Positions 3,028-27,317 of a stretch of DNA of 38,878 nucleotides are shown in pieces. Each line of letters opens with the position of its first letter. Position 1 is the stretch's first letter. The notes beneath the pieces are model-generated. The model was not told the origin of the DNA and ran no database searches. It was given only the letters and a program-made list of their open reading frames with translations. The stretch is from Alienimonas chondri (GTDB taxonomy: Bacteria > Planctomycetota > Planctomycetia > Planctomycetales > Planctomycetaceae): the NCBI RefSeq assembly GCF_013036045.1, contig NZ_WTPX01000032.1, positions 1 through 38,878 of the forward strand. The letters are read 5' to 3'. The position numbers and the translations under genes are program-made.

Positions 3028-3080
3028 GGAGGCTCGCGGAGGGTGTGGGGGGATTGGGGCGGCGATAGGTTCGGGCAAAT

Positions 3081-3163
3081 TCCAAGACCAAGAGATCAAG
3101 AACCAAAGATCGAGGTCGTTGCGATCAGCGGAGCGTTTTGGTTGTTGATCTCTTGGTCTTGGA
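3081..3163. repeat. Palindromic repeat family D (intergenic)
   Basis: Inverted repeat with 27-base arms at 3081-3107 and 3137-3163, matching at 26 of 27 positions. The arm begins TCCAAGACCAAGAGATCAA. It is clearly richer in A and T than its surroundings, which suggests a separate origin. It fills most of the 145-base gap between the gcvH-like gene and the ferredoxin-like gene and would form a long hairpin in a shared transcript, perhaps acting as an attenuator or processing site. Confidence 0.85.
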
Positions 3164-3172
3164 GCTTCCCCC

Positions 3173-3712: not shown

Positions 3713-3781
3713 ACGGCGTGAACCGAACGGGGGCGGGACGGATCAGTAAAGACCCGCCCCCCGCACGCCGCAACCGCCCGC

Positions 3782-4099
3782 ATGGCTCGGAAGTCTCGGA
3801 ACCGAATGCCGGATTGGTTCATTCAGCAGGACCGCTCCCCGCCCCGCTGCGAGCTGTGCCGGCACGAGTACGCCCGGCCCAAGCTCACGAAACACCACCT
3901 CGTCCCAAAGTCCCGCGGGGGGAGAGAGACCGTGCTGCTCTGCAAGCCGTGTCACAACACCGTGCACGCCACCTTCACGGAGAAGGAACTGGAACGCGAC
4001 TACCCCACGATCGAGGCGTTGAGCGACGCGGAGGAACTCCAGGGCTGGATCCGCTGGATTCGCAAACGCAAACCGGGCAAGAAGATCCGGGTGCGGTAA
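3782..4099 (+). CDS. Small HNH-type nuclease-like protein
   Basis: A 105-residue protein with a zinc-binding HNH-like core: C23 and C26 (CELC), the paired histidines H38-H39 (TKHHLVPKSRGG), C54 and C57-H58 (CKPCH) and a final H62. This is the layout of small stand-alone HNH proteins that are widespread in bacteria, and nuclease activity is inferred from the fold only. It is the only plus-strand gene in this part of the window. It faces serS with a shared hairpin at its stop codon. The start is ATG with no clear Shine-Dalgarno sequence. No restriction, phage or intron partner is nearby. Confidence 0.75.
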   Translation: MARKSRNRMPDWFIQQDRSPPRCELCRHEYARPKLTKHHLVPKSRGGRETVLLCKPCHNTVHATFTEKELERDYPTIEALSDAEELQGWIRWIRKRKPGKKIRVR

Positions 4100-4128
4100 C
4101 GCCGAGGCCCCGCGGAGCCTCGGCGTTA
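4097..4128. terminator. Bidirectional terminator hairpin between HNH gene and serS
   Basis: Perfect 12-bp stem, arms 4097-4108 and 4117-4128, with an 8-base loop. The left arm includes the TAA of the HNH gene. It lies in the 33-base gap between two convergent genes, as expected for a shared terminator, although no long T tract follows. Confidence 0.65.
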
Positions 4129-4132
4129 GGGA

Positions 4133-5434
4133 TTACCCGATCGAATCGAAGCCGCAGTAGGGCTGCAACACCTCGGGGATGCCGATCGATCCGTCTTCGC
4201 GCTGGTTGTTTTCCAGGAGGGCGATCAAGGCCCGGCTGACGGCGATCGCGGTGCCGTTGAGGGTGTGCACGAGGTCGGTGCCCTTCGCCGGTTTGCCCTC
4301 CTCGTCGGTCCGTTTGACCCGCACGTCGAGGCGGCGGGCTTGGTAGTCGGTGCAGTCGGAGCAGCTCGTCACCTCGCCCCATGATCCCTTCTGTCCTGAT
4401 CCGTTGTCTCGGCCGGGCATCCAGGCTTCGAGGTCGAACTTGCGGTACGCCGGGCCGCCGAGGTCGCCGGCGGCGATGTCCAGCACCCGATAGGGGATGC
4501 CGAGGCCGGTGAAGATCTCCTCTTCCAACGCCAGGATCTCGCCGTGCATGCGGCCGCTGGCGCCGAGATCGGCGGCGGTGAAGGCGAACAGTTCGACCTT
4601 CGTGAACTGATGCACGCGGTACAGCCCGCGGGTCGCCTTGCCGTAGGCGCCCGCCTCGGTGCGATAGCAGTGCGAGACGCCGGCGAGCTTCAGCGGCAGT
4701 TCGTTCGGCTCGAACGTCGTGCCGGCCCGCATGCCGCCGAGGGTGATCTCCGCGGTGGCGATCAGCGACAGATCCGTGCCCTCGACGCTGTAGATCTGCG
4801 TTTCCTCGCCCCGCGGGTTGAAGCCGGTGCCGCGCAGCACCTCCTCGCGGGCCAAGTCCGGCGTGGTGTGCGGGATGAAGCCGGCGGCGGTCGCTTTCTC
4901 GATCGCATAGCGGACCAGCGCCAGCTCCAGCAGGACCGCTTCCCGGGCGAGGAAGTAGAACCCGGCGCCGGTCGTTTTGGCGGCGCTGGCGAAGTCGACC
5001 AAGCCGTGCTTCTCGCACAGTTCCACATGGTCGAGCGGCTCAAACTCGAAGTTCGGCTTCTCGCCCTCCTCCCGCAGCATACGGCCGTCGTGCTCGCCGC
5101 CGTCGGGGGCGTCGGGGTGCGTGAGGTTGGGAATGAGAGCCTGAATCTCCCGCAGTTCTTCCTCGACCGCGGTTAGCTCCTCCGCGGCGGCGGCGACCTC
5201 TTTCTTTAGTTCGCCCGTGCGGGCGATGAGGGTCTGCCGTTCCTCCGGCGACGCCTTGGGGATGCCGGCGCCGGTCTCTTTCTGCTCGTGCTTGAGCGTT
5301 TCGGTCCGCTGGATCAGCTCGGACCGTTTGTCTCGCAGAAGCAGGAGACGCGGCAGGTCGACGTCCACGCCGCGGCGCCGGTTGTTGGCGACGACGGCGT
5401 CCGCGTTCTCGGCGATCAGATTGAGGTCCAGCAT
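4133..5434 (-). CDS. serS: Seryl-tRNA synthetase
   Basis: Class IIa seryl-tRNA synthetase, charging tRNA-Ser with serine in the cytoplasm. At 433 residues it is the usual size. The N-terminal MLDLNLIAENADAV block and the coiled-coil tRNA-binding arm (about residues 30-105) are present. Motif 2 reads CYRTEAGAYGKATRGLYR and motif 3 reads TLNGTAIAVSRALIALLENN, followed by GSIGIPEVLQPY. The ATG at 5434 matches the conserved N-terminus; the open frame continues upstream only through a palindromic repeat that abuts the start. It seems to be a single-gene unit ending at the hairpin shared with the HNH gene. Confidence 0.97.
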   Translation of the reverse strand: MLDLNLIAENADAVVANNRRRGVDVDLPRLLLLRDKRSELIQRTETLKHEQKETGAGIPKASPEERQTLIARTGELKKEVAAAAEELTAVEEELREIQALIPNLTHPDAPDGGEHDGRMLREEGEKPNFEFEPLDHVELCEKHGLVDFASAAKTTGAGFYFLAREAVLLELALVRYAIEKATAAGFIPHTTPDLAREEVLRGTGFNPRGEETQIYSVEGTDLSLIATAEITLGGMRAGTTFEPNELPLKLAGVSHCYRTEAGAYGKATRGLYRVHQFTKVELFAFTAADLGASGRMHGEILALEEEIFTGLGIPYRVLDIAAGDLGGPAYRKFDLEAWMPGRDNGSGQKGSWGEVTSCSDCTDYQARRLDVRVKRTDEEGKPAKGTDLVHTLNGTAIAVSRALIALLENNQREDGSIGIPEVLQPYCGFDSIG

Positions 5435-8101: not shown

Positions 8102-8278
8102 GGGGAAAACCCGGGGGACGGGGAGTTTGCGGGGCGAATTCTGCGAATTGGCCCGGTTTCCGACGAACCTACCGTGATCGCACCGGGTAAGTCTGTCGTT
8201 CCAGGAAGCGTTCTTCAGCGTCTTCCGGGACAAAACTCTCGTCGCTTTCATCGTTCGCCGCTTCCAACCGCCCCGCTC

Positions 8279-9964
8279 ATGACGCTTCGACCGCTCGCCG
8301 CAGCGCTCACGTTCGCGCTCGCTCCGCTGTTGTCGGTTTCGACGGCGGCCTCCGCCGCGGAGACCGGCGGCGAGGGCGTTCGCACCGGCGGAGATGCGGC
8401 GATCATCGCGGAGATCGACCGCCTCATCGCCCGCGGCTGGGAGGAGAACGGCGTCGAGCCGTCCCCCGTCGCCAGCGATTCGGAATGGCTCCGCCGCGTC
8501 TGGCTGGATCTCGGCGGTCACATCCCCGACGCCGAGGCCGTGCTGGAGTTCGACCGCAACCAATCCGAATCGAAGCGGGCGGAGCTTATCGAAGCGTTGC
8601 TGAACTCGCCGGACTACGTTCGCCACTTCAGCACCGTCTGGACGAACCTCGCCATCGGCCAGGGGCAGGTCGAGAACACCAGCCGTCTGGGGATGCGGCG
8701 GTTCTTTCGGAATGCCTTCGCCCGCAACGTTCCCTGGAGCGAGGTCGTCTTTGAACTGATCACCGCCGAGGGGCACTTCGAGGAGAACGGCGCCACGAAC
8801 TTCCTGCTCGCCCAGATGGTCGACAACGACGAAGGCGTGCAGGCGACCGCCAAGGCGACCCGCCTGCTGTTGGGCATGCAGGTGCAGTGCACCCAGTGCC
8901 ACAACCACCCGTTCAACGACTGGAAACAGGATCAGTTCTGGCAGTTCAACAGCATCCTGAAGAGTGCCCGCCGGATCGATCATGAAGAGTTCAACGAGCA
9001 GACCGGCCAGCAGGACTTCGTCTACGCAGAGTTGGTCCGCCGCCCGCTCGACGGCCCGGTGTTCTTCGAGAAGCGCTCCGGTCTGATGCAGGTCGCCTTC
9101 CCCGCCGCCTTCGGCGAAGTGTTCGGCGAGGGGATGGACACCGACCGCCGGACCGCGTTCGCGACCGCCCTCACCGGGCTGGAGCCGGACGACGAAGGCT
9201 TCCCGATGGCCAGCGAATCGGCCGAGGCCGTGACCGATCAGGTCGCCCGGGCCTTCGTGAATCGCACCTGGGGCCACTTCCACGGCTACGGCTTCACCCG
9301 GCCCGTGGACGACATGGGTCCGCACAACGCCCCCAGCCACCCGGAACTGCTGGACTACGTCACCGAACAGTTCATCACCCACGGCTACGACGTCCGCCGG
9401 TTGATCACCTGGATCACCCGTTCGCAGGCCTACCAGTTGACCAGCAAAGAGACGCGGGAGAACGAAGTGGACGACCCCGCCGCCGGCGAGGTGCCGCTGT
9501 TCAGCCACATGGCCGTGAAGCGGATGACCGCCGAACAACTGTACGACTCCCTGCTGATCGCCACCGAAGCCCAGAAAGCCGGCAACTCCGACTGGGAATC
9601 GATCGAGGCTCAGAAGCGGGTCTGGCTCGGCCAGTTCATCACGGAGTTCGGCACCGACGACCTGACGGAGTCGACCACCTTCAACGGCTCGATCCCGCAG
9701 GCCTTGATGATGATGAACGGCGAACTGACCTCCAAAGCGATCTCCGCCGACGCCGGCAGCTACCTCAACCGCGTGCTGGGTTCGACGACCAATCCGGAGG
9801 AAGCCGTCACCCGACTGTTCCTCGCCTCGCTGGGCCGCAAGCCCAGCGGCAAGGAGAAGTCCGCCGCCGCGGCGCTCATCCGCGCCAGCGAGAAACCGAT
9901 CTACGGCTACCAGGATCTGTTCTGGGCGCTGTTGAACAGCAATGAATTCGTCTTCGTGAAGTAG
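8279..9964 (+). CDS. Exported DUF1549/DUF1553 protein
   Basis: Planctomycete-type DUF1549-DUF1553 protein (561 residues) with an N-terminal signal peptide (MTLRPLAAALTFALAPLLSV, residues 1-20, cleavage probably after SAA near 27). The DUF1549 half covers about residues 40-230 and holds a heme-like CTQCHNHP motif at 204-211; DUF1553 covers about 250-560. This is a short form lacking the separate cytochrome and LamG domains of many relatives. The ATG at 8279 fits the signal peptide, without a clear Shine-Dalgarno. The next gene is DUF1501, its usual partner. The function of the family is not established; periplasmic redox or polysaccharide-related roles have been proposed. It is a paralogue of the C-terminal part of the protein at 11983-13974. 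Confidence 0.92.
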   Translation: MTLRPLAAALTFALAPLLSVSTAASAAETGGEGVRTGGDAAIIAEIDRLIARGWEENGVEPSPVASDSEWLRRVWLDLGGHIPDAEAVLEFDRNQSESKRAELIEALLNSPDYVRHFSTVWTNLAIGQGQVENTSRLGMRRFFRNAFARNVPWSEVVFELITAEGHFEENGATNFLLAQMVDNDEGVQATAKATRLLLGMQVQCTQCHNHPFNDWKQDQFWQFNSILKSARRIDHEEFNEQTGQQDFVYAELVRRPLDGPVFFEKRSGLMQVAFPAAFGEVFGEGMDTDRRTAFATALTGLEPDDEGFPMASESAEAVTDQVARAFVNRTWGHFHGYGFTRPVDDMGPHNAPSHPELLDYVTEQFITHGYDVRRLITWITRSQAYQLTSKETRENEVDDPAAGEVPLFSHMAVKRMTAEQLYDSLLIATEAQKAGNSDWESIEAQKRVWLGQFITEFGTDDLTESTTFNGSIPQALMMMNGELTSKAISADAGSYLNRVLGSTTNPEEAVTRLFLASLGRKPSGKEKSAAAALIRASEKPIYGYQDLFWALLNSNEFVFVK

Positions 9965-10083: not shown

Positions 10084-11349
10084 ATGTTCGCCACCGACCA
10101 GACGTCCCGCCGCCACTTCATGCGGCACATGGCCGCCGGCGCCGCGACGCTCCCCGCGTTGCAGTTCCTCTCCCACCTCGAAGCGAACGCCCAGGAAGTC
10201 CGGCGTCGCGGCAAGGCGGTGATCCTGGTCTGGCTGGGCGGCGGCGCCCCCACGATCGACATGTGGGACCTCAAGCCCGGCACGAACACCGGCGGCGAGT
10301 TCAAGCCCATCGACACCAAGGGCGACTTGCAGATCTCGGAGCATCTGCCCAAAACCGCGATGATGATGGACGAATTGTCCGTCGTCCGCGCCATGAGCAG
10401 CATCGAGGCCGACCACATGCGGGGTCGGTACTTCATGAAGACCGGCTACCGCCCGGAAGTCACCGCGACCCACCCGGACTTCGGCTCGGTCGTCTCCTAC
10501 GAACTGGGCACGCAGCGGCCGGAACTGGAGATCCCCGCGTTCATCTCCATCGGCGGCGGCGGCGGGCAGAGCGGCTACCTCGGCATGGCGCACGCCCCCT
10601 TCGAGGTCAGCTCCAACGGCCGCATCAAGAACGCCTCCCTGGATCGCTGGACCAACCCGCAGCGCCTCCAGAACCGGCTGGAGATGCTGGGCGTCCTCGA
10701 GCAGAACTTCATCAAGAGCGGTCGCGGCGACGCCCCCAAGGCGCACGCCGACGTCTACGACAAGGCCGTCAGCCTGATGACCTCCTCGCAGATGGACGCC
10801 TTCAAGGTCGAGCAGGAAGATCAGGCCACCCGCGACGCCTACGGCACCGCGCAGCTCGGCCGGAGCCTGCTGATGGCCCGTCGTCTGGTCGAGCGGGGCG
10901 TCCCGTTCGTCGAAGTCGGCTACGGCGGCTGGGACCTGCACAACGACGTGTTCAACTCCCTCGCCAACGACAAGCTGCCCACGCTGGACGCCGGCCTGTC
11001 GGCGGTCACCGCGGACCTCAAGCAGCGCGGCATGCTGCAGGACACGGTCGTCGTCTGCATGGGCGAGTTCGGCCGGACCCCGCGGATCAACCAGAACGTC
11101 GGTCGCGACCACTGGGCGCGCAGCTGGTCGGTGCTGATCGGCGGCGGCGGCCTGACCGGCGGCATCGCGGTCGGCAAAACCAGCTCCGACGGCATGCGGG
11201 TCGAAGGCCCGAGCTTCCTGCCGGGCGACCTCTGGGCGACCGTCGCCCAGGCGATCGGCATTCCACTGAACACGGTCCACACTTCGAAGACCGGCCGGCC
11301 GATGAAGCTCGCCAACGGCGGCCGCCCCATCGCCGAACTGATCGGGTAA
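10084..11349 (+). CDS. DUF1501 protein with Tat-type signal
   Basis: A 421-residue DUF1501 protein, a family related to alkaline phosphatase/sulfatase-type folds and nearly always next to DUF1549/DUF1553 genes in planctomycetes. The N-terminus carries a twin-arginine-like motif (SRRHFMRHM, residues 8-16) and a hydrophobic Ala-rich stretch, so Tat export is likely. Family blocks seen include [51 protein letters not shown] and [20 protein letters not shown]. The ATG at 10084 was chosen as the first Met before the signal. It probably forms a functional unit with the DUF1549/DUF1553 protein upstream. The substrate is unknown. Confidence 0.93.
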
Positions 11350-11431: not shown

Positions 11432-11986
11432 ATGCCCGAACCCGACGAGCAATTCCTCCGCGACTTCACCGCGTCCCAGCGGCGGCTGTTCCTGACCATT
11501 CTGAGCCAGGTGGGCCGCCCGGCGGACGCGGAGGAGATCCTCCAGAACGCGAACCTCGCGATCTGGCGGAAGGCGGACACGTTCGAGCCGGGGACGAACT
11601 TCAATGCGTGGAGCGCCACCGTGGCGACCTACGAAGTCTTGAAGTGGCGAGAGAAGCGCGGTCGCGATCGGCTGCGGTTCTCCGATGAATTCGTCGCCGC
11701 GGTCGCCCGCGAAGCGGAGGCGGACCCCGGTCTGTGGGAAGAACGTCGTCGCGTGCTCGAACGCTGCGTCGAGAAACTGCCGCGGAAAGACCGCGATCTG
11801 CTGACCCGCCGCTACACCCCCGGCTCCGACGGCAGCGAGGTTCAGGGCAAGGAGGTCGCGGAGATGCTCGGGCGACCGGTCAACGCGGTTTACCAATCAC
11901 TGGGCCGGATTAAAAAGACTCTGGCGGAATGCGTCCGCCGCGAACTGACTCAACTCGGCGCCCCGACGACGGGGATCGCAACGTGA
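11432..11986 (+). CDS. ECF RNA polymerase sigma factor (Rhodopirellula/Verrucomicrobium type)
   Basis: A 184-residue sigma-70 family factor with only regions 2 and 4. Region 2 covers about residues 10-80 (RPADAEEILQNANLAIWRKA, then FNAWSATVATYEVLKWREK). Region 4 covers about 105-170 (RCVEKLPRKDRDLLTRRY, then EVAEMLGRPVNAVYQSLGRI as the helix-turn-helix). The wording matches the planctomycete/verrucomicrobial ECF group. The ATG at 11432 is the first start after a degenerate palindrome. The stop overlaps the GTG of the next gene (GTGA), so sigma and its presumed membrane regulator are translationally coupled. The target promoter is not identifiable here; the flanking DUF1549/DUF1501 genes are candidate targets. 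Confidence 0.93.
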   Translation: MPEPDEQFLRDFTASQRRLFLTILSQVGRPADAEEILQNANLAIWRKADTFEPGTNFNAWSATVATYEVLKWREKRGRDRLRFSDEFVAAVAREAEADPGLWEERRRVLERCVEKLPRKDRDLLTRRYTPGSDGSEVQGKEVAEMLGRPVNAVYQSLGRIKKTLAECVRRELTQLGAPTTGIAT

Positions 11987-13974
11987 ACGCTCCCCCGCCC
12001 GCCGCCATCCCGTCGGATCTTGCCGACGCCCTGCATGCGTTGCAGGAGGACCGCCTCGACGCGGCCGGTTTGGCGACGCTCGAGCGTCGGGTGCTGGGCG
12101 ACCCCGCCGCGATGCGGGCGTATCTGGATCTGACGGCAGTCCACGGGGCATTGGCGTATGACGCGGGGACGCTCTCCTCGTCGGCGCTTCCCGCGTTGAC
12201 GCTGGCGAAAGAGCCGGCGGCGCCGAACGCGAACCGTTGGCGGTTGCCGCTTGCCCTGGCGGCCTCGCTGGCGTTGCTATGCGGCCTGACGTTCGTCCTC
12301 CGCCCGGGCGGCGTCCCCGAACCGGCGGACTTGGCGGCCACGGGCCAGGGTCCGACCGTCGATGGAGTCGAACCTCGTCCCTCCCCGGTCGAACCGGCGA
12401 CGCCGGTCACCCCGCCGTCACGGCCGACACGGGAGTTCTTCCCGGAGGTCGCCGCCGTCCCCCCGGCGCCTTCGACGCCGGCCGACGGCCAAGCGGACGA
12501 CCGGACGATCGCCGCGGTCGTTCCTCGCGGCGAATTGGTCGCGCAGATCGACGCCGCGCTCGCCCGGGGCTGGTCCGAAGCGGAAGTCGAACCGTCCCCC
12601 GAAGCGGAGCCGGGCGAGTGGCTGCGGCGGGCGTGGCTCGATTTCGCCGGCCACGCACCGACGCCGTCGGACGTCGATCGATTTCTCGCGGACGAGCGTC
12701 CCGATCGCCGCGAGCGGGAACTGGATCGTTTGCTGAGCGGGGACGCGTTCGCGTCTCATCTCGCCGAACGCTGGACGACGGCTCTCGTCGGCCGCGCCCC
12801 GCGTGAGGGCGTGGACCGATCCGGGCTGCGGGATCATCTGACCGATCAGTTCGCCCGGAACGTCGGCTGGGACTTCGTCGCCGCGGATCTGATCGCCGCG
12901 ACGGGCGACGTGAAGCAGGCGCCCGCGGCGAATTTCCTCGTCGCCCATGTGAACAATCAGGCGGTTCCGGCGACGGCGGTCACGTCGCGGGTGCTGCTCG
13001 GCACTCAGGTGCAGTGCATGCAGTGCCACGACCACCCGCAAAACGGCGGGACGGAGTGGTCGCAGGAGCGGTTCTGGGAGTTGAACGCCTTCTTCAAGGG
13101 CACGGACGTCGTGCGGCGTCCCGCCTCCGAGGGCGGCCGGGTGGCCGCCTTGGAAGCGAGCGCCGAGGGCGGGCCGACGTTCTTCGAAGATCGTCGCGGG
13201 GTGATGAAAGCGACCTTCCCGAAGTTCGCGGGCGAAACGATCGAAGCGGCGGACGGACGCCGCGAGAAGCTCGCCGAGTTGCTGCTGTCCGACGACCGGC
13301 GGCTCCCCGCGAAGTCCTTCGTGAACCGGGCGTGGGCGCACCTGTTCGGCGCGGGGTTGGTGAATCCGGTGGACGACCTTGGCCCCCACAATCCGGCGTC
13401 GCACCCCGCGGTGCTCGACGCGTTGACCGATCGCTTCGTCGCCACCGGCTACGACGTGCGGGATCTGTACGCGACCCTCGCCGCGACCCGGCTGTACCGG
13501 CTCAGCGGGGCGGCGACCGATGGAAACGCCTTCGACACGCCGATCGCCGGGAAGATCCCGTTGTTCACGCGGTGCTATCCGAAGCCGTTGACGGTGGAGC
13601 AGACCTTCGATTCGCTCGCCGCGGTCTCCGGCCGCCCGATCGACCCGGCGGCCCGGGATGAGTGGGTCGCCGGCTTCGTCCGCCGGCAGGCGAACGACGA
13701 GAACTCCGAGGATCTCGCCCCCGTCACCGATATCCCCCGGGCGTTGGCGTTGATGAACGGAGAGGCGATGGAGGACGCCCTCGCCGTGGCTTCCAGCGGA
13801 TCGTCCCGCTGGGCCGAGCCGGAGGATCTGGACGACGTGTTTCTCGCGGCGCTTTCCCGCCCCCCGACCGCCTGGGAGCGCCGCCGACTGGCCCCGCTGG
13901 TGCGGACTGAGAGCGGTCTGCAGGATCTGCGTTGGGCCTTGCTGAATAGCGGCGAGTTCGCCACCGTCCCCTGA
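11983..13974 (+). CDS. Anti-sigma-like membrane protein fused to DUF1549/DUF1553
   Basis: A 663-residue single-pass membrane protein. Residues 1-85 form a cytoplasmic segment (DALHALQEDRLDAAGLATLE, then GDPAAMRAYLDL) like the N-terminus of proteins encoded next to planctomycete ECF factors. No zinc-type HxxxCxxC anti-sigma motif is present. A transmembrane helix lies at about 87-106, then a Pro-rich linker to about 175. The remainder is a periplasmic DUF1549 (about 183-370, with CMQCHDHP at 345-352) and DUF1553 (about 400-663). The GTG start at 11983 overlaps the sigma stop. The C-terminal body is clearly paralogous to the protein at 8279-9964: both have an ARGW...VEPSP...EWLRR...WLD block. 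I infer that it is the sigma factor's cognate regulator carrying its own periplasmic sensor or enzyme. Confidence 0.88.
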   Translation: MNAPPPAAIPSDLADALHALQEDRLDAAGLATLERRVLGDPAAMRAYLDLTAVHGALAYDAGTLSSSALPALTLAKEPAAPNANRWRLPLALAASLALLCGLTFVLRPGGVPEPADLAATGQGPTVDGVEPRPSPVEPATPVTPPSRPTREFFPEVAAVPPAPSTPADGQADDRTIAAVVPRGELVAQIDAALARGWSEAEVEPSPEAEPGEWLRRAWLDFAGHAPTPSDVDRFLADERPDRRERELDRLLSGDAFASHLAERWTTALVGRAPREGVDRSGLRDHLTDQFARNVGWDFVAADLIAATGDVKQAPAANFLVAHVNNQAVPATAVTSRVLLGTQVQCMQCHDHPQNGGTEWSQERFWELNAFFKGTDVVRRPASEGGRVAALEASAEGGPTFFEDRRGVMKATFPKFAGETIEAADGRREKLAELLLSDDRRLPAKSFVNRAWAHLFGAGLVNPVDDLGPHNPASHPAVLDALTDRFVATGYDVRDLYATLAATRLYRLSGAATDGNAFDTPIAGKIPLFTRCYPKPLTVEQTFDSLAAVSGRPIDPAARDEWVAGFVRRQANDENSEDLAPVTDIPRALALMNGEAMEDALAVASSGSSRWAEPEDLDDVFLAALSRPPTAWERRRLAPLVRTESGLQDLRWALLNSGEFATVP

Positions 13975-14178
13975 TCGGCCACGGCCGCCGACGGCGCGAT
14001 CGACGGGCCTCGGAGTCCAGCGGCACGCCCCGCGAGAAGGCGACGCCGGAGCGGCGTGAGTCGATGTTTCACCGATTGGAGGGATGGGGTACAGTTCGCC
14101 CCCACTGCCCCAATCGGCGCAACCGCTCCAGCCGGTAAGTCTACTGGCTCGCCTTGTTTCCTCCGTCGCCGCTCCGCG

Positions 14179-15483
14179 ATGCCGTCCCCCGTATTACGCG
14201 TCGACGGACTGGGGAAACGGTACGACTTGGGGCTGACGCACGCCGGGAGCCTGGCCGCCGTCGCCAGCCGTTGGACACGGCGTCTGCGCGGGCTTCCCCC
14301 GGAAGAAGGGTCCGTGCTCACGGGAACCCACGCGGCTGACGACCAGTCGAGTTCATTCTGGGCACTGAAAGACGTTTCGTTCGAGGTGGGAGCCGGCGAG
14401 GTGGTCGGCATTATCGGCCGCAACGGGGCGGGCAAGAGCACCCTGCTGAAGATCCTCAGCCGCGTCACGGCGCCCACGACCGGCTCGGTGGAGATCGACG
14501 GCCGCGTCGGCAGCTTGCTGGAGGTCGGGACCGGATTTCATCCGGAGCTGACCGGCCGTGAAAACGTTTATATGAACGCCACGTTGCTCGGGATGAGCAA
14601 ACGTGAAGTTGACGCGAAGCTGGACGAGATCGTCGATTTTAGCGGCGTCGAGAGATTCCTCGACACGCCGGTCAAACGCTACAGCAGCGGCATGAAAGTG
14701 CGGTTGGGGTTCGCGGTCGCCGCGCATTTGGAGCCGGAGCTATTAATCATCGACGAAGTGCTTGCCGTCGGCGATGCGGAATTTCAAAGCCGGTGCCTGG
14801 GCCGGATGAAAACCGTTGCGGGCGAGGGTCGCACGGTGCTGTTCGTCAGCCACAACATGGCGGCCATTAGAACGCTCTGTCCCAGAAGTCTATGGATGGA
14901 GCAGGGACTGCTGCGCGCCTCCGGCGAGACTGCCGCCCTGATCACAGAATATATCGCACAAGATGCGGAGGTTCTCACCGCGGAGAGAGCGTTCGAGATC
15001 AACGAAGAAAAGGACGTACAATTGCTGTCCGCGGAGGCGGTCGCCCCGTCGGGGGAAAAGTCGGCGGGGCTGTTTGAATGTGACGACCCCCTCGCCGTGC
15101 GCCTGACTTTGTTGGTTCGTAGACCGGTTCCAAGGATGTACGGCTACTTGGAGTTCGTCAGCGATCGAGCCGGGACGGTTCTCGTCTCCGACAGCCACGA
15201 CTGTCCCCCGAATCCCCTCGACGGACTCGCGCCCGGCGTCCACGTGGTCGACCTGAACGTCCCGCCCCGCACCTTGGGCGTGGGGGAGTATTCGGTCTAT
15301 TTCAACCTCGCCAGTCCGGCTGCCGACGGATTCGACGTGGATTCGCCCGGCAATCTCATCCGAGTCCGGCTCACGGACCCGGCCACCAGGAGGGGCGACC
15401 GTCGCGGCGGTTGCCTCAGCACGCTCGTTAATTGGTCGGTCGCCCCCTCTCCGGCAACCGTCGCCCCCCCCATCTCAGCTTGA
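14179..15483 (+). CDS. ABC transporter ATPase for surface polysaccharide export (Wzt-like)
   Basis: A 434-residue ATP-binding subunit of the Wzm/Wzt type that powers export of lipid-linked O-antigen or teichoic-acid-like chains. Walker A GRNGAGKST is at 80-88, the signature YSSGM at 168-172, Walker B LLIIDE at 188-193 and the H-loop SHN at 224-226. A C-terminal beta-rich domain (about 260-420) resembles the Wzt carbohydrate-binding domain. ATG at 14179 fits the family N-terminus (VLRVDGLGKRYDLG). The stop overlaps the pseB ATG (TGATG). The membrane partner Wzm is not in the window. Context suggests export of a polymer bearing a pseudaminic-type sugar. Confidence 0.92.
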   Translation: MPSPVLRVDGLGKRYDLGLTHAGSLAAVASRWTRRLRGLPPEEGSVLTGTHAADDQSSSFWALKDVSFEVGAGEVVGIIGRNGAGKSTLLKILSRVTAPTTGSVEIDGRVGSLLEVGTGFHPELTGRENVYMNATLLGMSKREVDAKLDEIVDFSGVERFLDTPVKRYSSGMKVRLGFAVAAHLEPELLIIDEVLAVGDAEFQSRCLGRMKTVAGEGRTVLFVSHNMAAIRTLCPRSLWMEQGLLRASGETAALITEYIAQDAEVLTAERAFEINEEKDVQLLSAEAVAPSGEKSAGLFECDDPLAVRLTLLVRRPVPRMYGYLEFVSDRAGTVLVSDSHDCPPNPLDGLAPGVHVVDLNVPPRTLGVGEYSVYFNLASPAADGFDVDSPGNLIRVRLTDPATRRGDRRGGCLSTLVNWSVAPSPATVAPPISA

Positions 15484-16517
15484 TGCCCAACTCAGCCAAT
15501 TCCGTTTCGACCGCTGCTCCGTCCGACGAGAAACTCTCTTGGGACGGGGCGAACATCCTGGTCACCGGGGGGACGGGTTCGTTCGGCAAGCAGTTCGTTC
15601 GCACCGTGCTGGATCGCTACCGGCCGAAGAAGCTGATCATCTTCAGCCGTGACGAACTGAAGCAGTTCGAGATGGCCCAGGTCTTTCGGCCGGAGGAGCA
15701 CCCCGCCCTGCGATACTTTATCGGCGACGTGCGCGATCGCGAACGGCTGTATCGCGCCTTCGACGACGTCGACATCGTCGTTCACGCCGCCGCGATGAAG
15801 CAGGTGCCCACGGCGGAATATAACCCGATCGAGGCGATCCGTACGAACGTCGACGGCGCCGCCAACATTATCGACGCCGCCATCGACCGCGGCGTCAAAC
15901 GGGTCATCGCCCTGTCCACGGACAAGGCCGTCAACCCGGTCAACTTATACGGCGCCACCAAGCTGTGCAGCGACAAATTATTCGTCGCAGGCAACCACTA
16001 TGCCGGGCCGAAACGCACGCGGTTCAGCCTCGTTCGCTACGGTAACGTCGTCGGCAGTCGCGGGAGCGTCATCCCGCTCTTTAAGCGACTGCGGGAGACC
16101 GGCCGCCTGCCGATCACCGACGATCGGATGACCCGATTCTGGATCACGCTGGAACAAGGCGTCGACCTGGTTCTGAACGCCCTGCAACGGATGGGCGGCG
16201 GAGAAATCTATGTTCCCAAGATCCCCAGCATGACCGTCGTGGACCTCGCCAAAGCGATCGGTCCGGACTGCGAGCTGGACGTGATCGGCGTGCGGCCCGG
16301 CGAGAAGCTGCATGAGGTGATGATCACCGAGGACGACGCCCGCAATACCCTCGAATACGACGACCACTACACGATTCTTCCCGAATCTCTCCGCCAGAGC
16401 CGCGGCGAGTCCGAAACCGGCGGGAAGCCCTGTGCGGATGATTTCCGCTACAGCAGCGAGACGAACGACCGTTGGCTGACCGCCGAGCAGTTGCGGGAGA
16501 TCGTCGATGCGGCCTGA
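15483..16517 (+). CDS. pseB: UDP-N-acetylglucosamine 4,6-dehydratase (inverting), PseB
   Basis: First enzyme of the pseudaminic acid pathway, converting UDP-GlcNAc to UDP-2-acetamido-2,6-dideoxy-beta-L-arabino-hexos-4-ulose. The 344 residues form a short-chain dehydrogenase with NADP-binding GGTGSFG at 29-35 and the catalytic D147, K148 and Y156 in STDKAVNPVNLYGATK. The AAAMKQVPTAEYNPIEAI block is characteristic of PseB. The start is ATG at 15483, sharing one base with the TGA of the Wzt gene. The stop lies inside the pseC start region (11-base overlap). Part of a tightly packed pseBC-F-G set. Confidence 0.95.
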   Translation: MPNSANSVSTAAPSDEKLSWDGANILVTGGTGSFGKQFVRTVLDRYRPKKLIIFSRDELKQFEMAQVFRPEEHPALRYFIGDVRDRERLYRAFDDVDIVVHAAAMKQVPTAEYNPIEAIRTNVDGAANIIDAAIDRGVKRVIALSTDKAVNPVNLYGATKLCSDKLFVAGNHYAGPKRTRFSLVRYGNVVGSRGSVIPLFKRLRETGRLPITDDRMTRFWITLEQGVDLVLNALQRMGGGEIYVPKIPSMTVVDLAKAIGPDCELDVIGVRPGEKLHEVMITEDDARNTLEYDDHYTILPESLRQSRGESETGGKPCADDFRYSSETNDRWLTAEQLREIVDAA

Positions 16518-17778
16518 TCCGCAGACCTCCCCGCGGCCCGAGTCGTCCCCCCTGCCCTACGGCCGTCAGTCCGTGGACGAGGCGGACGTCGCGGCGGTGG
16601 TGGAATGCCTGCGCGCCGATCGGCTCACGCAGGGACCGCAGGTCGAACGATTCGAGGCGGCGTTGTGCGAAGCCAGCGGGGCGAAGCACGCCGTCGCCGT
16701 CGCCAGCGGCACCGCGGCGCTGCACCTGGCCAGTCTCGCGACGGGGGTGAAGCCGGGCGACGTCGGCGTGACGTCCGCGATCACCTTCGTGGCCAGCGCC
16801 AACTGCATCGCCTACTGCGGCGGGACGCCTCACTTCGCGGACGTCGATCCGCGGACCGGCCTCATCGACGTCGCTTCGCTGTCCGAGGCGGTCGATCGGC
16901 TCGCCGCGAGCGGAACGCCGCCCAAGGCGCTGGTCCCCGTGGACTTCGCCGGCCAGCCCGCGGACCTGCCCGGCGTGCGAGCCGTCGCGGAGCGCGTCGG
17001 CGCCGCGGTGATCGCGGACGGCGCCCATTCGCTCGGCGCCGCCTATCGACTGCCTGACGGAACCCTCCGCCGCGCGGGCGAGGGAGCGCTGGCGGATGCG
17101 ACCTGCTTCAGCTTTCACCCCGTCAAACCGGTCACCACCGGCGAGGGCGGCGCGGTCGTGACGAATGACGAAGGCCTCGCCGAAGCCGTCCGCGAACTGC
17201 GGACGCACGGCATCCACCGCGACGCGGCTCGCCTCACCCGGCCTGACGAGGGGCCGTGGTACTATGAGCAAGCCGGCCTCGGCTATCACTACCGCGTGAC
17301 CGATTTGCAGTGCGCGTTGGGTCGATCGCAGCTTCGGAAATTGGACGCGTTTCTGACCCGCCGCAACGCGGTCGCGGAGCAGTACCGCACCGCCTTGGAG
17401 GGGGCGCCGTTCCTCGGTCGCCTCGAACCGCTGACGGTGCGAACCGAGACGGTCCGGCACGGCTATCACCTGTTCGTCGTGCGCCTCATCCCGCGAGACG
17501 GGGAAACGGAAGAGGCCGTCGCCGACCGTCGGCGGGGGCTGTTCGAAGCGCTGCATCGCCGCGGCGTCCTCGTGCAGGTGCATTACATCCCCGTGCCGAT
17601 GCAGCCGTTCTACGGCGGGGACGTCTCCGCGTTTCCGGGGGCGAGAGCCTACTACGCCGGCTGCGTGAGCCTGCCGATCTTCCCCGGCCTCGGCGACGGG
17701 GAGGTGCGTCGAGTGATCGACGTATTGTCCGAATGCTTGGATGAAGACGCCGCCGCCGATTCCGCGGAGAGCCGATGA
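16507..17778 (+). CDS. pseC: UDP-4-keto sugar aminotransferase, PseC
   Basis: PLP-dependent DegT/DnrJ/EryC1/StrS aminotransferase that adds the C4 amino group to the PseB product, giving UDP-4-amino-4,6-dideoxy-beta-L-AltNAc. It has 423 residues. The PLP lysine is K207 in FHPVKPVTTGEGG, the pyridine-binding aspartate D171 is in DGAHSLGA, and SGTAALHLA binds the phosphate. The C-terminal block VHYIPVPMQPFY is typical of PseC. ATG at 16507 overlaps the pseB end by 11 bases, and the stop overlaps the next ATG (ATGA). Confidence 0.95.
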   Translation: MRPDPQTSPRPESSPLPYGRQSVDEADVAAVVECLRADRLTQGPQVERFEAALCEASGAKHAVAVASGTAALHLASLATGVKPGDVGVTSAITFVASANCIAYCGGTPHFADVDPRTGLIDVASLSEAVDRLAASGTPPKALVPVDFAGQPADLPGVRAVAERVGAAVIADGAHSLGAAYRLPDGTLRRAGEGALADATCFSFHPVKPVTTGEGGAVVTNDEGLAEAVRELRTHGIHRDAARLTRPDEGPWYYEQAGLGYHYRVTDLQCALGRSQLRKLDAFLTRRNAVAEQYRTALEGAPFLGRLEPLTVRTETVRHGYHLFVVRLIPRDGETEEAVADRRRGLFEALHRRGVLVQVHYIPVPMQPFYGGDVSAFPGARAYYAGCVSLPIFPGLGDGEVRRVIDVLSECLDEDAAADSAESR

Positions 17779-18554
17779 GCACGGACCGCCCCAAGGTCGT
17801 CGCGATCATTCAGGCGCGCCTGTCCAGCACGCGTTTGCCCGGCAAGGTGCTGAAGGAGCTCGCCGGCGAACCGATGCTACATTGGGTCGTTGAGCGGGTC
17901 CGAGCTGCGCATCACGCCGGCCGGCCGATTATCGACGAAACGATCGTGGCGACCTCCGACGACGCTTCCGACGACGCCCTCGCCCAATGGTGCGATCAGC
18001 GGGGCGTTCGCTGCGAACGCGGTTCGCTGCAAGACGTGCTCGCCCGCTACCACGGGGCCGCTGCTGCGGCCGACGCCGACGTCGTCGTCCGGATTACCAG
18101 TGACTGCCCGCTGGTCGACCCCGGCGTGACGGGCGAGGTCGTCGCGGCGTATCTGTCCGCGGACCCGCCCGTCGCGTACGCCTCGAACATCGTCCCGACT
18201 CGCAGCTACCCGCGGGGGCTGGATACGGAGGTCTTCTCGATGGCGTCTCTGGAGATCGCCCATCAGGAAGACGACGATCCCGCGAAACGGGAGCATGTCA
18301 CGCAATTTCTCTGCCGACAGCCGGAGCGGTTCCCGCGCACCTGCGTCGTTGGTTCGGAGGACCACTCCGCCCACCGCTGGACGGTCGATACGCCTGAGGA
18401 TTTTGAACTCATCCAGCGGATCTACACGCATTTCGCCGCCGCGGACGGCGCCGGGCCGAGGGACTTCGACTGGCGGGACGTGCTCGCCCTGCTGGCCGAT
18501 CACCCCGAATGGTCGGCGCTGAACCGGCACATCGAGCAGAAGAAGGTGGCATGA
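17775..18554 (+). CDS. Nucleotidyltransferase activating the nonulosonic acid (PseF/SpsF-like)
   Basis: A 259-residue cytidylyltransferase-fold protein. The N-terminus AIIQARLSSTRLPGKVL is the nucleotide-binding signature of SpsF-type enzymes. VVRITSDCPLVDP holds the metal-binding aspartates and RWTVDTPEDFELI is the C-terminal core motif. By its position it should make CMP-activated pseudaminic-type acid from CTP, but it is closer to SpsF than to classical PseF (IPARGGSKR type), so pseF is not assigned outright. ATG overlaps the pseC stop by four bases, and the stop overlaps the pseG ATG by four bases. Confidence 0.88.
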   Translation: MSTDRPKVVAIIQARLSSTRLPGKVLKELAGEPMLHWVVERVRAAHHAGRPIIDETIVATSDDASDDALAQWCDQRGVRCERGSLQDVLARYHGAAAAADADVVVRITSDCPLVDPGVTGEVVAAYLSADPPVAYASNIVPTRSYPRGLDTEVFSMASLEIAHQEDDDPAKREHVTQFLCRQPERFPRTCVVGSEDHSAHRWTVDTPEDFELIQRIYTHFAAADGAGPRDFDWRDVLALLADHPEWSALNRHIEQKKVA

Positions 18555-19642
18555 CGGAGGGCGCCCCGACCGCCGCCGTCCCCCGATCCGGAGACCAGCT
18601 GGGCCGGCTGACGCTCCGCGCCGACGCCACCGCGCGTTCGGGGACCGGTCATGTGATGCGATGCCTGGCGATCGCGGAGGCGTGGCAATCCGCGGGCGGA
18701 ACGGCGACGTTCGTCGCGGCGGAGATCGGCGACGGCTTGGCGACATTGGTACGCGACCGCGGATTCGAGGTGGAACGGATCGCCGCTCCCCCGGGGTCCC
18801 CGGCCGACGCCGACCTCTCCGCCGGCCACGCCGCGAGTGCCGCCGGCTGGCTGGCGCTCGACGGCTATCACTTCGACGCCGCCTATAAACGCCGGGTGGG
18901 GCGGGCCGTCCCGCTGCTGCTGATCGACGACTTCGCCGCCGACGGCTACGAGGCGGCCCGGCTCGTGCTGAACCAAACGCTACACGCCACCCCCGAGGCC
19001 TATCCAGACGCTCCGCCCGAATCGCTCCTGTTAGGCCCGACGTACACAGTTCTACGGAAGGAGTTCCGGTCGTTCCTCGATCATGTCCCCCCAGGGTCGG
19101 GGCCTGTCGTGCGTCTGTTGGTGACTCTCGGCGGCTCCGACCCAGACAACGCCGCCGGCGCGGTTCTGTGCGCGCTACTGCAACTCGCCAGAATTACCAC
19201 GCTTCCCGCGGTGACGCTTATCATCGGAGCGATGAGTCCGCATGCCGACCTCGTGCGATCGAAAGCAGCCGAGTTGACTGCATCGACCGGGGGGCTCACC
19301 GTCACGGTAAAGACCGCGGTCGCGGATATGGCCGCCGAGATCGCGGCCGCAGATCTCGCAGTGACGGCGGGCGGGCTAACGTTGCAGGAGCTGGCATTTC
19401 TAGGCGTCCCGGCGGTGGTGATTCGCACCGCAGAAAATCAGGCCAAGGGCGTGGCGGCGGCGGAGCGAAGCGGATTCGTCGTCGACCTCGGCCGGTTCCC
19501 GGGCCTGACGGTAGACGACTTGGCCGCTGGGTTGCACGAACTGATCGCCGACCCGGATCGACGAAAAGCAATGAGCGAAGCTGGCCGAAGAGTTGTGGAC
19601 GGCCATGGCGCGGGCCGTTTGGTTGCGGCCCTCCGCCCCTAG
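18551..19642 (+). CDS. pseG: UDP-sugar hydrolase of the pseudaminic acid pathway, PseG
   Basis: A 363-residue GT-B-fold hydrolase that removes UDP from the doubly N-acylated altrose intermediate. The N-terminal RADATARSGTGHVMRCLAIA is diagnostic, with H34 as the likely catalytic base; GGSDPDN and the C-terminal AADLAVTAGGLTLQELAFLGVP form the UDP site. No acetyltransferase (PseH) domain is fused to it. ATG at 18551 overlaps the previous stop. The plus-strand run is interrupted after this gene by a minus-strand formyltransferase gene. Confidence 0.92.
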   Translation: MTEGAPTAAVPRSGDQLGRLTLRADATARSGTGHVMRCLAIAEAWQSAGGTATFVAAEIGDGLATLVRDRGFEVERIAAPPGSPADADLSAGHAASAAGWLALDGYHFDAAYKRRVGRAVPLLLIDDFAADGYEAARLVLNQTLHATPEAYPDAPPESLLLGPTYTVLRKEFRSFLDHVPPGSGPVVRLLVTLGGSDPDNAAGAVLCALLQLARITTLPAVTLIIGAMSPHADLVRSKAAELTASTGGLTVTVKTAVADMAAEIAAADLAVTAGGLTLQELAFLGVPAVVIRTAENQAKGVAAAERSGFVVDLGRFPGLTVDDLAAGLHELIADPDRRKAMSEAGRRVVDGHGAGRLVAALRP

Positions 19643-19791
19643 CCCGCCGGTCAAATGGTCGATCCGGCGCCTCCCGGGAGTTCGCCTGCCGAGAGGCATT
19701 GACGGATTTCGCGAGGTTCAAACCGGAACGGTTCAGCCGGCATGGCGCCTCAATGTCCGGAATGCGCTTTAAAGTTCGCGAAAGCTTCCTG

Positions 19792-20409
19792 TCAGTTGCG
19801 TCGATCGACTCCATACGCTTCGAGTACGGACACAGGAGTGTCCCAGCCTTGCGTCAACAAGTAGTCGAGCCTTCGACGGTCCACGGTGCGGTGATAGGAC
19901 CCGCCGCTCGGTTGTCGCCTCCGCGACGCCGTCCCCCGGCGAACGGCATGCCAGTTCTCTTTAAAAAGTTCCATCAGCGTGCGCTGCAGTTTTCCATAGG
20001 AACTGGAGAGCGTTTCACGCTCGGAATCGAAGTGCAGCTCCCTCTGCGCGATGATGTCCCCCGTATCCAGCCCCTCGTCCATATAATGCAGGGTGACGCC
20101 CTTCGGCGTCCCGTCGACGAAACTCCAGAAGTTCGAGTCTGCGCCGCGATTCCAGGGCAGCAGCGAAGCGTGAAGATTCACCGCTCGACTCGGAAACTCC
20201 TCCAATACTTCACGTCGAACGATATGGCGATAGCGATAGCTCACGAGAAAATCAAAGCGACCTTCGACGACGTCGCTTTTTGAAATCCGCTGCTCGGTTT
20301 GAACGACTCGTGCTCCCTCCTCCCTTAGCCAAGGAATCAAAGGACAGTCGCTGAGTCCCGCGAATAGTACCGAAGCCCCAATAGCACGAGATGGATCGGC
20401 CGTATTCAT
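19792..20409 (-). CDS. Sugar N-formyltransferase-like protein
   Basis: A 205-residue formyltransferase of the methionyl-tRNA/GAR/sugar formyltransferase fold, using N10-formyl-tetrahydrofolate. The catalytic triad is visible: N78 and H80 in AVNLHASLLPWNRG and D115 in DEGLDTGDII. It lacks a C-terminal tRNA-binding OB domain, so it is not Fmt. It lies antisense between pseG and pseI, and its surroundings are visibly less GC-rich than neighbouring genes, which suggests separate acquisition. Since no pseH gene is present, the likeliest role is formylating the C4 amino group of the PseC product to give a 7-formamido pseudaminic-type acid. That role is an inference; the fold is firm. Confidence 0.85.
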   Translation of the reverse strand: MNTADPSRAIGASVLFAGLSDCPLIPWLREEGARVVQTEQRISKSDVVEGRFDFLVSYRYRHIVRREVLEEFPSRAVNLHASLLPWNRGADSNFWSFVDGTPKGVTLHYMDEGLDTGDIIAQRELHFDSERETLSSSYGKLQRTLMELFKENWHAVRRGTASRRRQPSGGSYHRTVDRRRLDYLLTQGWDTPVSVLEAYGVDRRN

Positions 20410-20530
20410 TGCGTGTAGTCGGTCAGACGGTGCACGTGTTCGACTCCCAGCCCCAGACGTGCTCTAATGCCGCCTGGACGACCGAGGGAACGACTCGGCA
20501 CAGGGTAACCAAAGCCATACCAGACATGAC

Positions 20531-21649
20531 ATGCCTGCGTCGACGGATCTGAAAATGGAGACGGCCTCGAGACCAGTTGAGAAGTTCGAAATCGCCGGCC
20601 GCTCGGTCGGTCCGGGCCGGCCGGCGTACCTCATCGCGGAGATGTCCGCGAACCACGGGGGGCGGTACGAGGACGCCGTCGCAATTATTCATGCGGCGAA
20701 GGAGAGCGGCGCGGATGCGATCAAACTCCAGACCTACACCGCAGACACGATCACGCTGGACGTGGACGCTCCGGAGTTCCTAGCCGCCGGAGCGTTGTGG
20801 CGGGGCCGGAAGCTGCACTCTTTGTATCAGGAAGCATATACGCCCTGGGATTGGCAGCCGAAGCTGGCGGAAGTCGCGGCGGAGGTCGGAATCGATTGGT
20901 TCTCCAGCCCGTTCGATCCGACGGCGGTCGATTTCCTGGAGGAGATCGACTGCCCTGTTTATAAAATTGCCTCGTTTGAACTGGTCGATCTGCCGCTGAT
21001 TCGGAAAGCCGCGGCGACCGGGAAGCCGTTGATCATGTCGACGGGCATGGCCTCGCTGTCCGAGATCGACGCGGCCGTCGACGCGGCTCGGTCAGCCGGG
21101 GCGGCGGGCGCGGCGCTGTTGAAGTGCACCAGCGCCTATCCCGCTTCGCCGGCGGAGGCGAACCTCCGCACGATCCCGCACCTCGCGGCGGCGTTCGGGG
21201 TCCCGGCAGGGCTCAGCGATCATACGCTGGGGACCGCGGTGCCGGTGGCGGCGGTCGCCTTGGGGGCCACGGTGATCGAAAAACACTTCACCCTTTCCCG
21301 GGACACCCCCGGCCCGGACAGCGCCTTCAGCTTGGAACCAGCGGAGTTTCGGCAAATGGTCGATGCCGTCCGGGTGGCCGAAGCGGCGCTGGGAACGGTT
21401 CGCTACGGCGTCACGGACGACTCGAAGGCGAGCCGGCGAATGCGGCGATCGCTGTATGTGACGAAGGACGTCCGTCGAGGCGAACGGTTCACTGCCGAGA
21501 ACGTCCGCTCCGTGCGACCCGGATTCGGACTGCCCCCGGAGTCCTTCGACGAGGCGGCGCTGCGCGTCGCCGCGACGGACGTGACCGCGGGGACGCCGCT
21601 CTCCTGGTCCCTGCTGGGCGCACGGGCCGATGCAACGGAAGGGACATGA
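20531..21649 (+). CDS. pseI: Pseudaminic-type nonulosonic acid synthase (NeuB family, PseI)
   Basis: A 372-residue synthase condensing phosphoenolpyruvate with the free 2,4-diacylamino-hexose to make the nine-carbon acid. The TIM-barrel motifs AEMSANHGG (36-44), KLQTYTAD (65-72), SSPFDPTAVDFL, KIASFELVD, LSDHT and EKHFTLSRDTPGPDS (metal and substrate contacts) are all intact. A C-terminal SAF (antifreeze-like) domain covers about 300-370. The ATG at 20531 is the first Met of the frame and is about 30 residues before the barrel; the ATG coding for M9 is an alternative. The stop overlaps the next ATG by four bases. PseI is favoured over NeuB or LegI by the pse neighbours. Confidence 0.93.
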   Translation: MPASTDLKMETASRPVEKFEIAGRSVGPGRPAYLIAEMSANHGGRYEDAVAIIHAAKESGADAIKLQTYTADTITLDVDAPEFLAAGALWRGRKLHSLYQEAYTPWDWQPKLAEVAAEVGIDWFSSPFDPTAVDFLEEIDCPVYKIASFELVDLPLIRKAAATGKPLIMSTGMASLSEIDAAVDAARSAGAAGAALLKCTSAYPASPAEANLRTIPHLAAAFGVPAGLSDHTLGTAVPVAAVALGATVIEKHFTLSRDTPGPDSAFSLEPAEFRQMVDAVRVAEAALGTVRYGVTDDSKASRRMRRSLYVTKDVRRGERFTAENVRSVRPGFGLPPESFDEAALRVAATDVTAGTPLSWSLLGARADATEGT

Positions 21650-27159: not shown

Positions 27160-27317
27160 TAGGATTTTAGGGCCGGTTGAGATCTGTGGATGAACCCGAA
27201 GATTCACGTCGTGGATGCTTACGCTACGCCGTCAGGGTGTCAATCGACATCGCTGCCCGGGGCGGGTCAGTTTGAGCAACGCGCGCTCGGCGCATCAGCC
27301 TTGAAACAGTGGGCGCA

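Follow-up and report, generated by a model that had tools for sequence, protein, structure and literature searches.

A membrane-bound DUF1549/DUF1553 duplicate as the likely sensor of a probable anti-sigma-type regulator in Alienimonas chondri

In Alienimonas chondri, the gene for an extracytoplasmic function (ECF) sigma factor is directly followed by a gene whose product combines a cytoplasmic helical domain and one membrane helix with an exported DUF1549/DUF1553 body, and a soluble DUF1549/DUF1553 protein is encoded upstream together with a DUF1501 protein. What does a membrane-bound copy of this body do next to a sigma factor? We addressed this question in the window, i.e. the whole analysed stretch of 38,878 nucleotides from contig NZ_WTPX01000032.1 (assembly GCF_013036045.1), and in related genomes. 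In our view, the product of the gene at 11983-13974 on the forward strand, hereafter the fusion gene, is likely to be a transmembrane regulator of the anti-sigma type that acts on the ECF sigma factor of the preceding gene and whose duplicated sensor would control the soluble DUF1549/1553-DUF1501 operon. Feature coordinates are collected in Table 1.

The sigma factor contains sigma-70 regions 2 and 4 (Pfam PF04542 and PF08281), both above their cut-offs. As the original prediction, made from the letters of the window, had claimed, its gene overlaps the next gene at GTGA, the GTG start of the fusion gene being at 11983 and the TGA stop of the sigma gene at 11984-11986. The fusion protein has 663 residues, and a second open start at ATG 11929 would give 681. 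A 4-base overlap was found in 40 of 66 loci of the family and, for a second type of locus described below, in 7 of 13, and the sigma-to-fusion distance is at most 8 bases in 63 of the 79 loci of both types together; because the fusion starts in relatives were chosen by proximity to the sigma stop, the recurring overlap does no more than favour GTG 11983. Moreover, the predicted layout, i.e. a cytoplasmic N terminus, one membrane helix and a DUF1549/DUF1553 region with a CMQCHDHP motif, was borne out by Pfam scores, hydropathy and AlphaFold2. PSCyt2/DUF1549 covers residues 188-375 (123.1 bits, cut-off 29.8), and PSD1/DUF1553 starts at residue 426 (104 bits, cut-off 28.5). The AlphaFold2 model, which was based on the window fusion and 26 relatives (27 of the 30 fusions then known), had a predicted local distance difference test score (pLDDT) of 77.8, with low confidence (<50) for residues 62-88.

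Unlinking of the two genes in relatives had been named beforehand as a possible refutation. Linkage proved to be conserved: of the 36 other family genomes examined (G001-G036), 29 have a fusion gene directly after the sigma gene, and because of this recurrence we consider the arrangement to be more than chance. Among these 29 pairs, the fusions of loci L128 and L148 are cut by contig ends and that of L108 is interrupted by an in-frame stop; in L108 (5914-8229; genome G009), a TAG splits the gene between the anti-sigma part and the body. In G017, a contig edge falls inside the sigma gene, and in six genomes (G008, G016, G018, G020, G023 and G032) no sigma-fusion pair was found within the fetched stretch. 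Later, 40 further stretches were fetched, nearly all selected for carrying the fusion and hence giving no rate; 36 have the pair and 3 (L167-L169) do not. The prevailing order in the family is soluble DUF1549/1553 gene, DUF1501 gene, sigma gene and fusion gene; of the 66 family loci, 62 have DUF1501 as the immediate upstream neighbour of the sigma gene, and 53 have the soluble gene ahead of DUF1501. Some of the loci without the soluble gene run into a contig end, and in others none was found in the stretch. The observation made on the sigma-fusion pair is thus confirmed and is more general than the single locus shows, while its interpretation as a sigma circuit with the membrane copy as sensor is partly supported. 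Of this interpretation, the heme, the redox sensing and the reading of the state of the DUF1549-DUF1501 pair are conjectural, a shared ligand being as possible as the last.

A profile of the N-terminal domain, built from 28 of the 66 family loci, matches on the strand of the cassette in all 66. Among 645 chains, the top three VIA matches of the predicted domain were RsiW (5wuq; Z 6.7, 2.4 Å over 57) and two structures of MucA (8z6g, Z 5.8; 6in7, Z 5.5). Taken alone these Z values are weak; the match counts because the top three of 645 chains are all ECF anti-sigma domains. With Foldseek, 5wuq_D had a probability of 0.96, but stood at rank 11 with an E of 3.3. RsiW and MucA inhibit their sigma factors and have one membrane helix each. 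These class I anti-sigma factors share with the fusion a helical cytoplasmic domain and a single membrane helix; they differ in that their fourth helix is not recognisable in the fusion and in that the exported part of the fusion is a DUF1549/1553 body. According to PMC7406223, the class I anti-sigma domain consists of a three-helix bundle that binds sigma region 4 and a fourth helix that binds region 2. For the bundle, the fusion has three predicted helices with RsiW as best match; the sigma region contacted is unreadable from the model described next.

A further refutation named beforehand was a structure in which the N terminus makes no contact to the sigma factor. In locus L109, the sigma and fusion genes lie in one frame with one stop between them. 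We read this stop as glycine and folded the resulting 276-residue chain on an alignment of 5 of the 6 in-frame loci, L109 included, and 31 of the 66 sigma rows, so that only five rows cover the anti-sigma part. This tethered model had a pLDDT of 85.8 and a predicted template modelling score (pTM) of 0.82; because by our own estimate a pTM of ~0.65 at most is expected if only the sigma part of ~174 residues is placed, the domain appears to be placed confidently. The N-terminal domain is thus predicted with confidence to sit on the sigma factor, the contacts themselves being unread. By rmsd, sigma regions 2 and 4 of the tethered model are nearest to SigW held by RsiW (5wur_A, 4.9 Å over 106; 5wuq_B, 5.4 Å over 115), followed by SigK-RskA at 10 Å, RpoE-RseA or AlgU-MucA at 17 Å and sigma H bound to RNA polymerase (RNAP) at 24.7 Å over 144.

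The A. chondri genome (G000; 5.3 Mb, 355 contigs) has 27 PSCyt2 matches and four TIGR02989 sigma factors above the cut-off. Each of the remaining three sigma genes (L046, L047 and L048) is followed by the gene for a FecR or FecR+LamG protein, and each of these pairs has a DUF1549/1553 gene on the same contig, two of them also a DUF1501 gene. The usual partner of such sigma factors had been predicted to be of the FecR, LamG or WD type; the FecR and FecR+LamG part of this claim holds for all three, and the WD type does not occur among them. The FecR domain (PF04773), present in all three counterparts, was not detected in the fusion at a limit of E 0.1. Judged by these domain matches, the DUF1549/1553 body stands here in place of a FecR/LamG sensor. 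The FecR-type regulators share with the fusion a TIGR02989 partner, the sigma-regulator gene order, a DUF1549/1553 gene on the contig and, in two of three cases, a weakly similar N-terminal domain (28.5 and 23.1 bits with the profile of the fusions; E limit 10). They differ in that FecR or FecR+LamG is the sensor and DUF1549/1553 is a separate, longer gene, whereas in the fusion the DUF1549/1553 body would itself be the sensor. Some FecR N termini activate their sigma factor. The weak resemblance to regulators of the same sigma family could thus mean that the N-terminal domain of the fusion is a pro-sigma co-activator, a fragment of which the sigma factor needs for activity; the RsiW- and MucA-like structure and the missing FecR domain argue against this, and we give it little credence.

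If the fusion is an anti-sigma-type regulator, where does its sensor come from? The fusion and the soluble protein are paralogues. The soluble protein had been predicted to be the closest relative of the fusion, and within the genome it is a relative indeed, i.e. the second-best match with 40% identity; across genomes, the fusion is closest to its counterparts (78% identity within the genus). A tree of the bodies was built from 69 of 181 rows. Of the membrane copies, it contains 20 of the 64 from the family and 7 of the 10 second-type ones; the decayed or divergent bodies of L208 and L214 were left out, and shortness or decay kept out those of L144/L209, L212, L128 and L148. The family's membrane and soluble copies fall jointly to one side of a branch with a support of 99/98, which supports an origin of the exported body of the fusion by duplication of the soluble protein encoded beside DUF1501.

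The membrane copies diverge faster than the soluble copies. In 51 paired loci, the mean identity is 0.474 for the membrane and 0.605 for the soluble copies, and the membrane identity is the lower one in 1266 of 1275 pairs, which are non-independent. The soluble copy has 105 columns with a constancy of at least 98%; the membrane copy keeps 49 of them constant (95%), and in 29 a fifth or more of the membrane rows differ. CTQCH[ND]HP is strict in the soluble copies (53/53) and relaxed in the membrane copies, of which 63/64 retain CxxCH. The only copy of the 64 in which CxxCH is wholly lost belongs to a long fusion of 817 residues (L166, 4751-7201). Residue 322 is glutamine in 53/53 soluble and histidine in 60/64 membrane copies; histidine is also found at this position in 18 of 41 other DUF1549 rows. 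By this pattern, the membrane copy looks like a protein that was kept folded and assigned another task.

Retention of CxxCH and the predicted folded body are also what would be expected if the fusion were a membrane-anchored enzyme subunit and a further target of the sigma factor, with an N terminus that has no anti-sigma role. This explanation does not account for the 29 altered columns or for an N-terminal domain that is found in every family locus, has RsiW and MucA as its best matches and weakly matches two FecR-type regulators; we regard it as quite improbable. Similarly, CxxCH could be a c-type heme or metal site, in which case the regulator would sense redox state or metal. Its persistence amid varying neighbours, and in decayed bodies of the second type, speaks for this special case of a sensor; the loss in L166 speaks against it, the heme or metal is putative, and a search for solved relatives by sequence gave a single match, at E 0.37. 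We think this version unlikely. A full-length structure search gave 0 Foldseek matches for the DUF1549/1553 body at E <=0.001, a result of little weight as the body was folded only within the full-length chain.

An anti-sigma-type regulator implies targets of the sigma factor. Upstream regions of the soluble gene (up to 350 bases, 52 of 53 loci) contain the pair CGAA-N18-GGTA in 17 of 52 cases, and any word pair in five shuffled sets occurs in at most 5. A matrix with the consensus aCGAACaT - 12 or 13 - nnnGGTAa scores above the 99th percentile of shuffles in these regions for 40 of 52 loci; in held-out halves 107 of 156 pass, which is not an independent rate as related genomes occur in both halves. 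The matrix gave no hit upstream of the sigma gene (0/52 loci), in upstream regions of other families (0/18) or in loci with the second-type sigma factor (0/6). The position of the element, before the soluble gene and not before the sigma gene, argues against the fusion as one more enzyme-subunit target. We conclude that transcription of the DUF1549-DUF1501 pair is probably driven by the sigma factor, with the CGAAC-N17-GGTA element, absent from the original prediction, as putative promoter. Between the DUF1501 and sigma genes, terminator-like hairpins were found in 31 of 51 loci, and ten shuffles gave 5-16; the window does not count among the 31.

The exact pattern GACGAACN{16,18}GGTAA has 3 sites in the A. 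chondri genome and 4 in a sister genome, and the reversed control has 0. In both genomes, which represent two species of the genus, one site lies upstream of a gene for a VWA-domain membrane protein (L227, gene 1931-3952 on the reverse strand, site 3986-4014; L228). The matrix, trained only on the soluble gene's upstream regions, passes the 99th percentile before the VWA gene in 12 of 30 loci from 28 genomes (28 of 170 family genomes were sampled), and in 10 of 28 when the two loci found via the motif are left out. In G018, G023 and G032, which lack the sigma gene, the region upstream of the VWA gene scores 3.3, 3.1 and 2.9, and several sigma-bearing genomes score equally low. From these matches, the VWA-domain membrane protein is a probable second target. 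The other exact sites (on contig C41 of A. chondri and at 2.14 and 5.11 Mb of the sister genome) were not taken as targets since no matching gene was seen behind the sites of both species. In the sister genome, an exact match (L230, 3231-3258) lies 35 bases before a gene at 3294-4925 (+), which we take to be a sulfatase gene; no corresponding site was seen in A. chondri.

Is this arrangement restricted to the family? Among 40 searched genomes of other planctomycete families, of which long-looking cases were fetched so that no rate can be derived, we found a second type of locus, with 13 loci in 12 genomes (two in G054; groups f5, f19 and f20). A class-wide search of 297 genomes gave family rows only, among the matches listed. 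The second-type sigma factor is a different ECF factor (four were scanned against TIGR02989 and score 72-85 bits, below the cut-off), and the fusion consists of an N terminus followed by a hydrophobic segment and a DUF1549/1553 body. Its N terminus gave no match to the family domain profile at E 10. In the body tree, seven second-type membrane copies cluster with soluble copies of other families with a support of 100/99, and a tree constrained to unite all membrane copies is worse by 78 log-likelihood units (p-AU 0.0009 in the approximately unbiased (AU) test). A single ancient fusion with a later swap of the sigma factor was rejected by the AU test (p 0.0009). A duplicate of the apparently regulated protein thus apparently became the sensor of a sigma factor twice. 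In four second-type genomes (L208, L209, L212 and L214), the body is decayed or divergent (41-383 bits), and the HP after CxxCH is altered (DSE, DPE, DAK, DSP), with CxxCH kept.

That the duplicated body is the one of DUF1501's neighbour, apparently twice independently, and that DUF1501 lies directly upstream of the sigma gene in nearly all family loci, are consistent with a special case of the anti-sigma reading in which the sensor reads partner supply and not a substrate: DUF1501 would bind the membrane copy, and unpartnered or missing DUF1501 would set sigma activity. Binding of DUF1501 to the membrane copy is an assumption, and the soluble-DUF1501 pair is next door in just 6 of the 13 second-type loci (5 of 12 genomes), which makes this stoichiometric form of control doubtful.

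A comparable regulator is known from Clostridium thermocellum. According to PMC4711584, RsgI6 is an anti-sigma-I factor with a GH10 module that has very low activity and is 57% identical to Xyn10D, and its sigma factor recognises the promoter of its own gene as well as promoters of genes for this type of enzyme. As is proposed for the fusion, RsgI6 is a transmembrane anti-sigma factor with an exported sensor, a weakened enzyme copy in RsgI6 (PMC4711584) and a duplicated body in the fusion. RsgI6 differs in having a sigma-I factor without region 4, an RsgI_N domain and a glycoside hydrolase sensor, whereas the fusion has an ECF sigma factor with region 4, an ASD-like domain (resembling an anti-sigma domain) and DUF1549/1553. 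Pfam (limit E 0.1) finds no RsgI N-terminal domain in the fusion, and its partner sigma factor has region 4. By analogy, the fusion would work like RsgI6 but outside the RsgI family.

In Rhodopirellula baltica, the ECF factor RB10049, which is induced by heat, cold and salt, is reported as the presumed regulator of the PSD1/PSC2 protein RB10051 (Wecker 2009 citing Studholme, PMC2754498). As in the sigma-fusion pair, an ECF sigma gene is linked with a PSD1+PSC2 protein; the two differ in that this source describes RB10049 and RB10051 as regulator and target and not as sigma and anti-sigma factor, and their identity with the second type, compared by description only, is a guess. A PSD1+PSC2 protein cited as the target of an ECF factor (PMC2754498) is a precedent for the enzyme-subunit explanation. 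On the PSCyt genes in its Verrucomicrobia genomes, He 2017 (PMC5615132) states that nothing is known about their function. We found no description of an anti-sigma factor with a DUF1549/1553 sensor in the literature searched; the main ECF classification lay outside that search, so that an earlier description is possible.

Several observations weigh against the fusion as an anti-sigma-type regulator of this operon. No Pfam or NCBIfam anti-sigma model matches its N terminus, Z values below 8 for small helical bundles can reflect a common arrangement, and the fourth helix, with which class I anti-sigma domains bind sigma region 2, was not seen, residues 62-88 having a pLDDT below 50. By Z, i.e. 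local fit, RNAP-bound sigma H chains come first for the tethered sigma factor (13.6 vs 10.2 for SigW of the RsiW complex), and the alignment range of 5wuq_B extends into the N-terminal domain. Moreover, the sigma contact was predicted on an artificially joined chain from another genome, with neither coordinates nor predicted aligned error, and a tether can favour packing. As to the promoter-like element, 12 of 52 sigma-bearing loci fail the matrix threshold, 2 of 8 family loci classed as lacking the sigma gene still carry the element before the soluble gene (L167 of these eight ends at a contig edge), it is present in just 1 of 3 loci with the sigma gene on another or cut contig, and the independent count for the VWA gene is the smaller one of 10/28. 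Finally, gene conversion between copies could mimic two origins.

With these points weighed, we favour an autoregulatory switch as the simplest account of the anti-sigma-type regulator. The N-terminal helical domain would keep the sigma factor at the membrane, and the exported DUF1549/DUF1553 body, a copy of the soluble protein whose gene adjoins DUF1501, would act as sensor. The signal would most likely be a ligand or partner common to the soluble copy; because of the analogy with RsgI6, we rank a shared ligand first, ahead of the DUF1501 partner and of redox or metal state. We infer that the signal would free the sigma factor, probably via stepwise proteolysis, and that the freed factor would fire the soluble DUF1549/1553-DUF1501 operon from the CGAAC-N17-GGTA promoter, as well as the gene for the VWA-domain membrane protein. 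Levels of the sigma factor and its regulator would rise as well if transcription partly ran through the terminator-like hairpins of many relatives. More tentatively, the twice-independent duplicate of the DUF1501 partner may read occupancy by, or a ligand of, the DUF1549-DUF1501 machine, which would thereby set its own supply via a decoy copy.

Outside the cassette, the window contains on its 3' side (14056-21649) a run of genes including one for an ABC transporter ATPase (Pfam); other genes in this run presumably serve synthesis of a nonulosonic acid of the pseudaminic or legionaminic type. The reverse strand at 24214-27207 encodes a 997-residue protein, the N-terminal start of which we take to resemble CheB, possibly as part of a CheB/CheR hybrid.

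Table 1. Coordinates of the cassette features in the window
Feature	Position	Strand	Details
ECF-type promoter-like element GACGAACCT-N12-CCGGGTAAG (CGAAC-N17-GGTA), putative	8162..8191	+	87 bases upstream of soluble gene; matrix from 52 loci
Soluble exported DUF1549/DUF1553 protein	8279..9964	+	561 aa, CTQCHNHP; PSCyt2 147.7 bits, PSD1 116.9 bits; start ATG 8279 chosen by us, ahead of hydrophobic N terminus
DUF1501 protein, RR (Tat-like) N terminus	10084..11349	+	PF07394 328.5 bits; twin-arginine translocation (Tat) model weak, 13.5 bits vs cut-off 16.7
ECF sigma factor, TIGR02989 (Rhodopirellula/Verrucomicrobium type)	11432..11986	+	184 aa; 147.9 bits, cut-off 124.55
Cytoplasmic anti-sigma-like domain of fusion	11983..12171	+	residues 1-63; predicted helices 11-21, 27-39, 41-63
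Membrane helix of fusion	12244..12300	+	about residues 88-106; hydropathy maximum 2.29, 19-residue window from residue 88; AlphaFold2 helix 90-105
Proline-rich linker of fusion, predicted disordered	12301..12525	+	pLDDT <50 for residues 107-175
Membrane copy of DUF1549/DUF1553 body	12526..13971	+	residues 182-663
CMQCHDHP motif of fusion	13015..13038	+	residues 345-352

PSCyt2 genes are numerous (27 in this genome) and apparently without known function, and the arrangement described here is a first handle on this large protein family. Given a sigma factor devoted to it, a sensor that descends from the protein itself, a promoter element and a probable VWA target, the functional question becomes one of a defined genetic circuit. 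The activator of the sigma factor, once found, would be a lead to what the DUF1549-DUF1501 machine acts on. Moreover, the two independent origins, if true, would make this a clean case of the conversion of an enzyme into a sensor.

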